A stretch of DNA of 10,804 nt from Actinomortierella ambigua (lineage: Eukaryota > Mortierellomycota > Mortierellomycetes > Mortierellales > Mortierellaceae). Of this stretch, positions 6,301-9,143 are shown in pieces; position 1 is the first letter of the stretch, and the number at the start of each line of letters is the position of its first letter. The position numbers were made by a program, and so were the translations under genes. The stretch lies in NCBI GenBank assembly GCA_016098155.1, contig JAAAJB010000848.1, positions 1-10,804 on the forward strand. The letters run 5' to 3'. Under the pieces are notes generated by a model, which had not been told where the DNA came from, searched no databases, and saw only the letters and a list, made by a program, of their open reading frames with translations.

Positions 6301-9143
6301 ATTTTTACTGCTGAAGCGTTGCTAACAACGTTCGACGAGTAGTTTTCTCCGAGTAGAGGAGTTCTCTGCATCGAGTAAAATTTTATTGCCCGATTCTTAC
6401 GAATCGGCGACAGCTTATCCTTTTTAACTGTCCATCCTGTACCTGCCCCATTTTCTACAAAGCTACTAGCTAATAATAGAATTAAAGATGGAGGTAATAA
6501 CCAGAATGAGATATTATTTAATCTAGGGAATGCCATATCTACTGCACCGATCATTACCGGTACCAAGAAATTACCAAAACCACCGATTAAAGCTGGCATA
6601 CGATTTACCCATTAACTTTCGTCAATGGCTGGACTATATCTTTACCCTTAAGTATAAAAATTTACATCCTATGGAAGTTTTTCTTTATTACTTAGTGGGG
6701 TATTTCACGTGTAGTCTCTGAGGATCCTACTAAATAAAAGTGTTATTGCTTATTACTAAGCCCTTTTATTTTTGGTTTCCTGCTGATTGCCTAATCATTT
6801 AAATGTCACTGTATTCTACTGCTTTTCATCTAAGAAAGTCTGTAGTACTAGTTTTAAATGCTCTTAAGGTGTTCCAGCATATAGTGAAAAGAAAATAAGA
6901 TCTTTCAACCTTATCCGGCTATGCCATAAAATAAAAATGAATTATTCATTATTGTTTGTATCTTTGACTGAACTAGAATTTATATAAGTAAATTTCCATT
7001 TACCTCGATAATATCCTGATTTAGTACCATTTAAATAACTTCTAATTGTAGATCGATCTCCTTTTAAAGCTTTAGCTAAAGAAGTTAATGAATTAAATTC
7101 TCTATTAAGATCTGAATTATCTTTAAATTCAGCTAATATTGCTTTAGATGCAGGATGTTTAACTGTATAATTATCTCTTTTTTCTTTAACTAAAGCTATA
7201 ATTTCCTCTAATGACAACAGATTTATTTTATCACTTTCTTCGATTTCATCTAAAGAAAAGAAAAATTCATCTAAATATGCTGATCCTGTATCTAAACAAT
7301 CATTTAAAGAATTATGATGTATATTTATTGAATCATACATATGCTGTTTAGAATCAAATATGTATAATAAAGTGAAATCTTTTATATCATAAATATAAAT
7401 AGGTATTCCTCTTTCTTTTCTTAATTTATCCCTGATTTCTAAATTCATAGGTTCATGATATCCTGAACTACTAGCTACTAAATCAACGTTTAAATTCGAT
7501 TTTAATGAATCAATAAAGTATTGTTCCAATTTTACTATATTTTCCGTATCCACGGAGTTATCTACTATTAGTATAGTTAATTTTATATTATTAAATCCAT
7601 ATTTATTAAAGTATCTAAGTACTCTACGAGCTTTAGTTTTAAGTATAGAAGGCATAAAATAAGAGCTTATACGGTTATATAAATTTATAGAATGACCCAC
7701 AAAAAGAATATTTTCAGGGACAACCCCTAAGAAATCTGATTCATAAATTCTTATATCATTAGATAATTCTAATGGGGGATTATCAGTGAATTTATTCAAA
7801 GATGATAATAGAGTATTAATTCTAGATATTCCTATTTCAGTATTATGCCCCCCCGAAATAAGAATATTTAATATTTCCTCCCATAATTTAAAATTTTTAT
7901 ATTTTAAAGCTTTAGAAGGAATTGTATTTTCAAGAAAAAAAGGTAAAATATAGTTATAACAATCTTTATAAGAACTAATCTCATAATTATAACTACTTCC
8001 ATTTTTAGATATACTACCTACATTTCCAAAATAAGATTTTATTACTTTTAATAGTTCTAAATCTTTAGCGTGTTGAGTTATAATAAATCTTGCTCTAAAA
8101 GCATTACGTTTATTATCTTTAGAAGAGGCTGTAAATGAACCATCACCTGTTATAAATCCAACTAACCATTGAGGTTCAGTTATTTTAGTAATATTTTCTA
8201 TTTCGTCCCGTTTAACAGGAGTTACATTAGGAAAAGCACTTTCTAAAGAAGTAGATAGCCCATTATTTAAACTAGCTTTAAGATTTATGATTTCTTGTAA
8301 TCCTTTTTCAGTTAAATGTTCTTGTTTATACATTATATTAACGATTTTAGACCACAATATGAAATCTAATCTTTTTTGAGTTAATAAAGGGAATGAATTA
8401 AAATGAGGGATTACTATATTAATTAAATCATCTAATTTTTTTACTGTAAAAAATACTCTATGATTTTTAGTATCTTTAGTTATATAACCAATTCCCCCAA
8501 AAAATTCTTGAATACTTAATAGTAATGGTAATTCTGAAATATGTAAACCTATTACAAATTTAGAGCTAACAATCCAATTTGAAAGATGGTTTGGATTACG
8601 ACTTACTGAAGTAATAAAAGAAGATTCAGCATCTGAGAATCCTGTTACAAAATAAGGGTGTAATTTATCTTTACCATCTAAAGATTCCCATATATATATA
8701 CCTTTTTGTTTTTTAGTTATTCTTAAAATTACATCTCTATTATTATAAGGATCTTTTACCTCTATTCTAGTAAATTCAGGTAAATCTTTTGGTAATAAAT
8801 TAGATTCATCTGGGTCATTCTCTTGCTTAGAATAGCCCGAAGAATTGGATGAGAAGTTATTATTTACAAATACATCTGAGTTATTATTTTTTACGAACAA
8901 TAATGAAAAATCATTGAAAATACGTGTATTGTTAACCATGAAGAAAATCATTATAAAAGCATGCGCTGTTACAATTACATTATATAGTTGGTGATCACCT
9001 TGTAAATATTGTATTCCTGGTCCTGCTAATTCTAATCTAATTAAAACAGAAAATGCAGTCCCAATCATACCTGAGAATAATGCAAAAATTAGGTACAATG
9101 TACCTATATCTTTAGCATTAGTAGAAAAAAGCCAACGTACCAC
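2663..9143 (-). CDS. cox1: Cytochrome c oxidase subunit 1 (four exons)
   Basis: Cox1 is the catalytic subunit of complex IV and binds heme a, heme a3 and CuB in the inner membrane. Joining 9143-8935, 6600-6427, 5254-4774 and 3397-2663 gives 1599 nt, exactly 532 codons plus TAA, a usual length. The metal ligands are visible: His61 and His377 for heme a, His375 for heme a3, and CuB ligands His240, His289 and His290. Glu242 and Tyr244 lie in GHPEVY. The start is GTG at 9143-9141 (then [13 protein letters not shown]). No ATG lies between the upstream in-frame TAG (9158-9156) and this GTG, so GTG is the best start. The protein ends [20 protein letters not shown]. Three group I introns interrupt codons 70 and 128 and fall between 288 and 289. 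No frameshift is seen in the exons. Confidence 0.96.
3567..3647 (-). pseudogene. cox1: Decayed duplicate of the start of cox1 exon 2 inside intron 3
   Basis: The minus strand from 3647 reads [26 protein letters not shown] and a TAA. It corresponds to [28 protein letters not shown] of the true exon 2. The first 33 nt are nearly identical to the exon; after that the copy drifts. It starts at the same point as exon 2, just after the intron 1 splice junction. It lies between the endonuclease stop (3679) and the S element of intron 3, so it is spliced out and not part of Cox1. A 3' exon fragment brought along by a mobile element is the likely origin; this is inference. Confidence 0.85.
3679..4773 (-). 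CDS. LAGLIDADG homing endonuclease of cox1 intron 3
   Basis: The frame is open from exon 3 through the core to a TAA at 3681-3679. The core-derived part is recognisable as TQSAGNR (Q) and SASETTRV (R). Numbering from Met158 of Cox1 as residue 1, the motifs are [11 protein letters not shown] at 234-244 (Asp242) and [11 protein letters not shown] at 354-364 (Glu362). The tail [20 protein letters not shown] is typical and is shared with the remnant at 29-141. Both catalytic acids are present with no stop, so it appears intact. It would cleave the intron-less cox1 VWS/HHMY site if active. The nuclease proper probably starts near residue 228. Maturase activity is possible. Confidence 0.92.
4774..5254 (-). 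CDS. cox1: cox1 exon 3
   Basis: Encodes one base of codon 128 and residues 129-288, from [13 protein letters not shown] to GVLGFIVWS. It contains GHPEVY with CuB ligand His240, Glu242 and Tyr244. An ATG at 5166 is internal Met158, not a start. The 3' border is between GTATGGAGT and TAC, and joining to exon 4 gives the universal VWSHHMY. P1 is short: exon GAGU with GCUC in the intron, U-G at the splice site. Confidence 0.94.
5255..6426 (-). other. cox1 intron 2: group I intron with LAGLIDADG ORF
   Basis: Length 1172 nt. P1 pairs exon GACAGU (ending at 6427) with intron GCUGUC about ten nt in, with the canonical U-G wobble. An R-like element CATCAGAGACTTAACGTAA is at 6239-6221 and the S element AAGGTATAGTCC at 5339-5328. 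A CAATTG/CAGTTG P9-type stem follows S, and the intron ends in G at 5255. The ORF lies between R and S, so it occupies the P8 loop, and it stops only about 15 nt before S. Confidence 0.9.
5355..6425 (-). CDS. LAGLIDADG homing endonuclease of cox1 intron 2
   Basis: The frame continues from exon 2 through the intron core and stops at 5357-5355. Counted from the exon 2 Met (residue 1 at 6599), the two motifs are [11 protein letters not shown] at 137-147 (acid Asp145) and [11 protein letters not shown] at 287-297 (acid Glu295). Each is followed by a typical alpha-beta half. The tail [13 protein letters not shown] is usual for the family. Residues 59 to about 130 are translated ribozyme core, so the mature nuclease probably begins near 130 after proteolysis of a fusion protein; this is known for related yeast proteins and inferred here. 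Both acids are present and there is no internal stop, so it looks intact. Function as a maturase is possible but cannot be judged from sequence. Confidence 0.92.
6427..6600 (-). CDS. cox1: cox1 exon 2
   Basis: Starts with the third base of codon 70, then [11 protein letters not shown]... through GAGTGWT and two bases of Val128. The 5' border follows the intron 1 terminal G at 6601. The 3' border is fixed by P1 of intron 2 (GACAGU with GCUGUC, U-G at the splice site). The first 27 codons have a decayed duplicate at 3567-3647. Confidence 0.94.
6942..8933 (-). CDS. Intron-encoded nested GIY-YIG/LAGLIDADG homing endonuclease
   Basis: The ORF is open in frame from exon 1 to a stop at 6944-6942, 733 residues counted from the cox1 start. 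After the exon it shows a linker rich in Asn and Ser, then a GIY-YIG leader (DPYNNRD... [12 protein letters not shown] at 148-150). A complete two-motif LAGLIDADG unit follows at about 160-476, with motifs [10 protein letters not shown] (Glu173) and [11 protein letters not shown] (Asp334). The rest of the GIY-YIG domain resumes with [14 protein letters not shown] (YIG equivalent 481-483, Arg491), [13 protein letters not shown] (Glu540) and GYHEPM. A NUMOD1-like segment ([20 protein letters not shown], from 582) and a C-terminal region ending [14 protein letters not shown] complete the protein. Family knowledge predicts DNA cleavage at the intron-less cox1 site. Whether either nuclease is active is unknown: the GIY-YIG core is split by the insertion, while both LAGLIDADG acids are kept. 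Confidence 0.88.
7713..8666 (-). other. LAGLIDADG module inserted inside the GIY-YIG domain
   Basis: These coordinates mark the approximate limits of the inserted block, residues 160-477 of the ORF. Left of it the protein reads [13 protein letters not shown]; right of it ENILFVGHS. Removing the block leaves about ten residues between GIY and FVG, the normal spacing in this family. The block begins [13 protein letters not shown], the usual start of a LAGLIDADG module. It ends soon after the family-typical tail ([15 protein letters not shown]), with a short extra linker. No P/Q/R/S ribozyme elements are visible inside, so a complete inner group I intron is unlikely. The exact edges are uncertain by several residues. 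Confidence 0.75.
8935..9143 (-). CDS. cox1: cox1 exon 1
   Basis: Encodes residues 1-69 and two bases of codon 70, from [16 protein letters not shown] to [10 protein letters not shown]. It includes the heme a ligand His61. The 3' border (after GT of 'ATGGT') is chosen so that exon 2, starting TATGCC, restores FFMVMPALIGG. It may be off by one base, because I could not identify a convincing P1. Confidence 0.9.

Follow-up and report, generated by a model that had tools for sequence, protein, structure and literature searches.

A LAGLIDADG gene nested in the GIY-YIG gene of cox1 intron 1

The window analysed here is the whole 10,804-nucleotide stretch of contig JAAAJB010000848.1 (assembly GCA_016098155.1) of the fungus Actinomortierella ambigua. 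Open reading frames (ORFs) and Pfam matches mark it as mitochondrial DNA (mtDNA), with cox1, split by several introns, on the minus strand and cox3 on the plus strand. In this assembly, the fungal transcription-factor family PF04082 has 19 matches, compared with none in 14 control genomes. We focus on P0001, the ORF of the first cox1 intron, in which a LAGLIDADG homing endonuclease lies within a homing endonuclease of the GIY-YIG kind. Exon 1 of cox1 (8935..9143, minus strand) was placed by its frame and by the match of residue 1 of the relative P0022 at 9143; it appears to start with GTG, as suggested by relatives that begin MVRW, and ends in FFMV with an intron in phase 2. The splice point between exon 1 and intron 1 was read from the sequence, on the assumption that the rule of an exon T and an intron-final G applies. 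The exons then join as FFMV-MPALIGG across intron 1 (6601..8934, minus strand), whose position after FFMV and whose phase are those of the cox1-212 site, as PMC10448965 describes it.

A previous sequence-only reading had described one uninterrupted ORF that starts as a GIY-YIG protein, passes into a complete two-motif LAGLIDADG endonuclease with both acids kept, and returns to GIY-YIG and NUMOD1; this layout was borne out. A single frame, free of stops and of TGA, begins in exon 1 and extends over 737 codons until a stop at 6942-6944. P0001 (6942..8939, minus strand), taken from its ATG at 8939, has 665 amino acids plus the stop and is in frame with exon 1. It matches the Pfam families LAGLIDADG_1 twice (9.4e-41), NUMOD1 twice (1.3e-13) and GIY-YIG (4.6e-7), the last over profile positions 13-74 only, the first strand of the profile being elsewhere. 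Alignment to five uninvaded relatives, which have the GIY-YIG protein without the insert (P0004, P0012, P0022, P0025 and P0047), located this absent strand (KGIYIWES) about 330 residues upstream, before the LAGLIDADG block.

Along the minus strand, alignment and an AlphaFold2 (AF2) model delimit a GIY-YIG N-part of 92 residues (8664..8934; leader, DPYNNRD...), with the GIY strand at residues 79-86 (8682-8705). It is followed by the inserted block, residues 93-412 (7704..8663, 960 nt), as set by alignment to the uninvaded relatives. The block comprises the LAGLIDADG domain, residues 93-382 (7794..8663), and a 30-residue linker from its end to the YIG motif (7704..7793), in which the predicted local distance difference test score (pLDDT) falls below 50 at residues 387-409. 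The GIY-YIG C-part with its NUMOD1 region, assigned by Pfam and alignment, occupies 6945..7703, and the best NUMOD1 match in Pfam covers residues 512-549 (7293..7406); the roles of Arg423, Glu472 and Asn482/484 in the C-part are presumed from the motif. Removal of the block restores the alignment to the uninvaded relatives, as had been anticipated, but the limits first proposed (160-477, about 318 residues) were corrected to 165-484, numbered from the start of the open frame, and 320 residues.

GIY-YIG enzymes show a GIY-(about 10)-YIG spacing, which is also seen in P0004. P0001 has no contiguous core with both tyrosines: 320 residues separate the two strands, and the Tyr of the YIG motif is Phe. 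The alignment shows a clean insertion at this Tyr codon. The possibility that the two flanks derive from different proteins was checked; both are homologous to one GIY-YIG/NUMOD1 protein, with 69/88 residues of the N-flank and 220/253 of the C-flank identical to uninvaded P0004. The nesting of a LAGLIDADG unit in a GIY-YIG protein is certain. An intein was rejected, as no intein family matched P0001 in Pfam up to E 10 and no Hint domain flanks the block. An assembly chimera was likewise rejected: an assembly accident is unlikely because two other proteins, P0002 (86%) and P0003 (72%), share the full-length arrangement.

The inserted domain has two LAGLIDADG_1 repeats, each with its catalytic acid, and a complete I-OnuI/I-SmaMI fold. 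The acids, identified from the sequence and by alignment to I-SmaMI, are E105 in the first motif (8619..8654) and D266 in the second (8133..8168); I-SmaMI also has Asp at the position aligned to D266. Foldseek and VIA-align searches with the nested AF2 model returned only LAGLIDADG chains among the rows shown, because this domain fills the list.

Intron 1 is probably a group I intron, given P/Q-, R- and S-like core elements, recognised by their consensus, at 6774-6788, 6708-6721 and 6631-6642, 3' of the ORF. Using search patterns taken from intron 1 itself, no such elements were found within 7704-8663 at 2-3 mismatches. Block and LAGLIDADG domain share their first residue, and the 90 nt that remain after the domain are too few for a group I core. 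A twintron, which had been named as one outcome that would overturn the nesting, was therefore rejected; the core elements lie outside the block, and it bears no sign of an inner intron. Rfam matched no intron family in the window or in intron 1, a weak negative since it also missed intron 1's own core.

Invaded and uninvaded forms of the host gene

To place P0001 among its relatives, we searched for homologues; 120 of the 514 proteins over threshold were listed, giving 121 with P0001. The full nested arrangement was present in 2 of the 120 matches listed, P0002 and P0003. Two others, P0018 and P0020, carry the GIY N-part and the LAGLIDADG domain followed by a stop inside the linker, such that the YIG half is not read through. 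The relatives with a GIY-YIG ORF alone that had been called for were found for the cox1-212 host: uninvaded ORFs among P0004-P0121 (P0018 and P0020 aside), mostly at 68-87% identity (P0118, 50%), have the same flanks in the same order and no insert. Invaded and uninvaded forms can be very close. For example, P0003 differs from uninvaded P0022 at 2/84 residues of the N-flank (97.6% identity) and 3/254 of the C-flank (98.8%), and the flanks of P0002 are 93.2% (N) and 93.7% (C) identical to those of uninvaded P0004. On a host tree of the 66 of 121 proteins that passed a motif filter (3 nested; 55 left out), the nested state needs 3 changes for the 3 nested rows, and starred branches force 2 of these changes.

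The organism's own assembly yielded no empty copy of the cox1-212 GIY-YIG gene. Four other GIY-YIG ORFs on contig C589 of the same genome match the whole profile and therefore carry no insertion; the YIG codons are readable in three of them, e.g., GGTAAATTA-TATATAGGA. An 81-codon GIY-YIG piece, which may be nuclear or a fragment of mtDNA, was also seen on another contig of this assembly (G000) at C133:20924-21076.

Conservation of the GIY-YIG half

The C-part was compared in the 113 of 121 proteins that could be aligned (110 uninvaded and 3 nested; 8 left out), with a motif filter that required Y, F or I at the YIG Tyr position. At the 42 columns invariant in the uninvaded proteins, P0001, P0002 and P0003 differ at 1, 0 and 1, respectively. 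Both departures are at the YIG Tyr, which is Phe in P0001, Ile in P0003 and Tyr in 110/110 uninvaded proteins. Of 20 changes peculiar to P0001, only one falls on the 95 conserved columns among 242, where 7.85 would be expected (P 4e-4, in a test that leaves open whether the insertion or the changes came first), and this one is again the junction Tyr. Compared with P0021 and P0022, P0003 has a single change of its own in the compared columns, at the YIG Tyr; therefore, either this codon is the insertion point or the insertion has released it from constraint. It is well supported by these column comparisons that the C-part is under constraint and maintained rather than just recent debris; of the earlier alternatives of a recent or a selected ORF, maintenance is thus the better supported.

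The AF2 model of P0001 (66-row alignment; pLDDT 73.7, predicted template modelling score [pTM] 0.54) contains strands at 79-86 and 411-417, helices at 420-426 and 435-447, a strand at 452-459 and a helix at 465-477. The control model of uninvaded P0004 (36 rows; pLDDT 66.3, pTM 0.33) is weak; its elements lie at 144-151, 157-162, 165-170, 181-191, 197-204 and 210-224, and its best matches in the PDB are the GIY-YIG domains of UvrC and I-TevI, at an E of only 0.03. In their order along the chain, the GIY-YIG elements agree between the two models. For the GIY-YIG part, the prediction is that its elements persist and that the LAGLIDADG domain sits in the turn of its first hairpin.

Relatives of the inserted LAGLIDADG domain at YIG codons

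Relatives of the LAGLIDADG part were collected by a search with this region (120 of 175 matches listed) and by a LAGLIDADG-only profile built from eight sequences (120 of 417 listed); the figures below apply to the matches listed. For the upstream count we used the retrieved LAGLIDADG proteins with the domain start present, leaving out P0247, P0250 and P0256, whose start is missing. Twenty-two proteins score at least 285 bits, and 18 of these have at least 30 residues upstream. A GIY fragment precedes the domain in 13 of these 18, compared with 0.21 expected from shuffles, and in 5/179 proteins below 285 bits (2.61 expected), including one apparent chance case, P0318. For the close members, a chance origin of the GIY-like letters was rejected, as the shuffles give 0.21 against 13. 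The difference between close and distant members has a Fisher p of 9e-13, and 4/8 members first found by the LAGLIDADG-only profile carry the fragment (p 1.6e-4), but these values overstate independence, since 6/13 carriers have the same cox1-212 host. The latter subset matters because the first search favoured long proteins.

A LAGLIDADG tree of 66 rows was built from the 22 best-scoring proteins, 6 chosen GIY-linked ones and 38 random ones (P0254 and P0255 were left out). Its 13 YIG-site rows fall within one clade of 22 rows, which are the 22 best-scoring ones, with a Shimodaira-Hasegawa-like approximate likelihood ratio test (SH-aLRT) support of 99. Judged by eye, the upstream fragments end at about the same cut in different hosts (SLDGKDK/, KETGKQ/, LTNGHNY/, KINGHSY/ and SVNGKQYV/), the shared position being at or beside the YIG codon in three or more distinct GIY-YIG genes.

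The host is the cox1-212 gene in P0001, P0002, P0003, P0018, P0020 and P0255, and also, by its exon, in P0245, although the GIY piece there has diverged. The host of P0125 (COX1 profile match at 271-346) lies in a later cox1 intron, as do those of P0126, by exon letters, and of P0128, by its similar GIY piece. Further hosts are the P0124/P0243 type and that of P0248, the pieces of P0243 and P0248 being 41% alike. Between groups, host N-pieces share 9-41% identity across 32 residues, compared with 45-55% for the LAGLIDADG parts; therefore, the LAGLIDADG gene seems to have moved between GIY-YIG genes. Taken as sequence evidence, these data strongly suggest a site-specific LAGLIDADG clade at YIG codons.

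P0243 and P0311 come from the same source and may lie on one contig; the start of P0311 resembles a GIY-YIG C-half and is perhaps the displaced half of the P0243 host. Scans of viral contigs with the LAGLIDADG profile, P0243 and P0125 gave no relatives. Among genome contigs, scans with P0001 found none, and those with the profile found one distant bacterial locus, L015.

Other insertions near the same motifs and neighbouring features

When viral contigs were scanned with P0001 and P0004, a single mitochondrial contig emerged (IMGVR_UViG_3300027664_000476, here L001), which is filed as viral and carries fungal-type mtDNA. Its cox1-212 GIY-YIG gene (9980-10399 and 11632-11979) is interrupted about 13-16 codons beyond the insertion point of P0001 by a LAGLIDADG gene of another kind, and the frames are broken. 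In P0163, as in L001, a different LAGLIDADG follows YNRIS(S)Y of the same cox1-212 gene, and in P0195 a LAGLIDADG follows KKQKG. In four proteins of other lineages (P0129, P0159, P0260 and P0311), a LAGLIDADG begins just after (K)GKSGI(Y) or a similar motif. The GIY codons are thus a possible second landing site, and insertions seem to have landed in the GIY-YIG core repeatedly.

Elsewhere in the window, a cox3 exon was noted at 253-876 on the plus strand, with an S-like element of group I type (272-283) ahead of it, and cox3 is probably split by an intron as well. GC-rich clusters with runs of G or C and GCCCCTGCGGG-like motifs are dispersed in this AT-rich mtDNA (about 1425-1445, 1795-1815, 2350-2372, 9590-9617 and 10720-10750); to our eye, they are reminiscent of the GC clusters of yeast.

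Interpretation and alternatives

We consider it probable that a LAGLIDADG gene entered at the YIG Tyr codon of the cox1-212 GIY-YIG gene and that its homing target is the conserved YIG-coding DNA. A gene of the I-SmaMI/I-OnuI kind would have entered without an intron of its own, reading in frame with the preceding exon 1 and GIY strand and, in P0001, also with the part that follows. It would be made as a portion of the exon-fused protein, cut GIY-YIG alleles whose YIG-coding DNA is uninterrupted and be copied into them by gene conversion, while the insertion itself would protect the target site. Relatives may have invaded different GIY-YIG genes because YIG codons are conserved DNA, and the intron may still home by its GIY-YIG part. 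A wider proposal, on which we are evenly divided, is that the clade is dedicated to the YIG codon and that some lineages, that of P0001 included, form stable two-nuclease proteins in which the LAGLIDADG domain loops out from the GIY-YIG hairpin, with two nested homing activities, one moving the intron into cox1 and the other moving the inner gene into the GIY-YIG gene. The notion of a single odd hybrid gives way to recurrent insertion among the LAGLIDADG relatives.

Several observations weigh against YIG-directed homing. Cleavage at the YIG site is itself deduced from sequence. Uninvaded alleles were seen for the cox1-212 host only, those of the other hosts being presumed. No upstream GIY is present in 5/18 testable members (P0240, P0241, P0246, P0254 and P0123), of which P0123 resumes downstream as LYVGSSHNLSK, a tail whose YVGSS Pfam does not call; four further high-scoring members have no upstream sequence, and the three fragments named above lack the domain start. 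The YIG-site label needs 7 changes on the LAGLIDADG tree (shuffled mean 12.0) because in 9/22 clade rows either the GIY piece or the whole upstream part is absent. Pfam calls no upstream GIY in P0124, P0125, P0128, P0243, P0245, P0248 and P0311, where the pieces are short, and hence their identification rests on motif and position. On the host side, the nested rows are few (three) and no more clustered than shuffled labels, the YIG Tyr is lost in 2/3 nested proteins, and the conserved-column test does not date the insertion against the C-part changes. Moreover, insert and flank identities rise and fall more or less together in P0001, P0002 and P0003, a pattern that would also suit a single old insertion followed by precise losses.

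Such a single old invasion, in which the hybrid spread and diverged by GIY-YIG homing and the LAGLIDADG gene is now a passenger without a present GIY-YIG target, would explain the parallel identities and fits with other hosts being identified by short upstream pieces only. We hold it to be unlikely, since the host pieces are mostly far below the LAGLIDADG parts in identity across groups, the hosts lie in at least two cox1 introns, and precise loss from alleles 93-99% identical would require recombination with empty alleles anyway. The sequence-only reading had proposed that the LAGLIDADG unit took over intron homing; it would then cut the cox1-212 exon junction and drive the intron, with the GIY-YIG part as a relic or splicing factor. 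A complete domain with both acids that is fused to exon 1, together with the loss of the YIG Tyr in P0001 and P0003, would suit this idea. Yet the nearest relatives occupy varied locations with a common insertion point at the YIG codon, which makes the GIY-YIG gene itself the likelier target; at least one group sits in another cox1 intron, whose exon junction differs, and the C-part is still constrained. We thus consider a takeover quite improbable.

Ordinary decay, with P0001 a fused pseudogene still open by chance, is less probable again: the change of the YIG Tyr to Phe would agree with it, and about 90% of 307 LAGLIDADG genes are given as deficient in expression, folding, stability and/or cleavage in PMC13405050, but three divergent full-length copies are open and the changes avoid conserved columns (P 4e-4). 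Finally, splicing of the block to give a normal GIY-YIG mRNA would restore the alignment just as its removal does, and complex introns are reported from various fungi in PMC12308204. Given a block that starts with the LAGLIDADG domain, the 90 nt after it, the lack of core-like elements at 2-3 mismatches and, weakly, the Rfam result, we regard the chance of such a twintron as negligible.

A conserved target that is cheap to lose suits homing genes best, and the catalytic codons of another homing gene fit both demands. If homing into YIG codons is real, this is a selfish gene parasitising selfish genes, a second-order element at the most conserved catalytic DNA of first-order elements. It would add a new layer to the homing cycle of invasion and decay, in which the predator could hasten the loss of homing genes or be carried along, and would provide a natural example of a domain inserted into the GIY-YIG hairpin. 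For annotation, it should be noted that LAGLIDADG matches in cox1-212 ORFs can be insertions within GIY-YIG genes.

Comparison with known systems

To our knowledge, enzymes of the I-SmaMI, I-LtrI and I-OnuI type (PDB 5e5s, 3r7p and 3qqy) home to an intron site or to rps3. The LAGLIDADG of P0001 is of this type but lies inside another endonuclease gene. Sethuraman et al. in 2009 reportedly described LAGLIDADG genes fused into rps3 as 'genes within genes'. As in these rps3 fusions, as presented in PMC12308204, the LAGLIDADG coding region is joined in frame directly to a protein gene; in those fusions, however, the host is a ribosomal protein joined at its C-terminal segment, whereas in P0001 it is a selfish nuclease joined at the catalytic hairpin. 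Uninvaded fungal cox1-212 GIY-YIG ORFs have the same flanks as P0001, without the insert and with the YIG Tyr kept.

The closest case is the complex cox1-212 intron of Leptographium sp. WIN(M)1376 (Mukhopadhyay et al. 2023, PMC10448965; repeated in PMC12308204). There, the LAGLIDADG gene is said to have arrived with part of a group IB intron and to have pushed the remainder of the GIY ORF downstream. Unlike in that description, no intron piece was found in the block of P0001, the frame runs through YIG and NUMOD1, and the insertion site is common to relatives in other hosts. In the open-licence literature we found no published LAGLIDADG clade that targets YIG sites, and a report may exist elsewhere. 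Megarioti and Kouvelis (PMC7487136) left endonucleases of more than 500 residues out of their analysis, and therefore such fusions would drop out. Thus, where one Leptographium cox1-212 case was known, the present data strongly suggest a LAGLIDADG clade that recurs at the YIG site.

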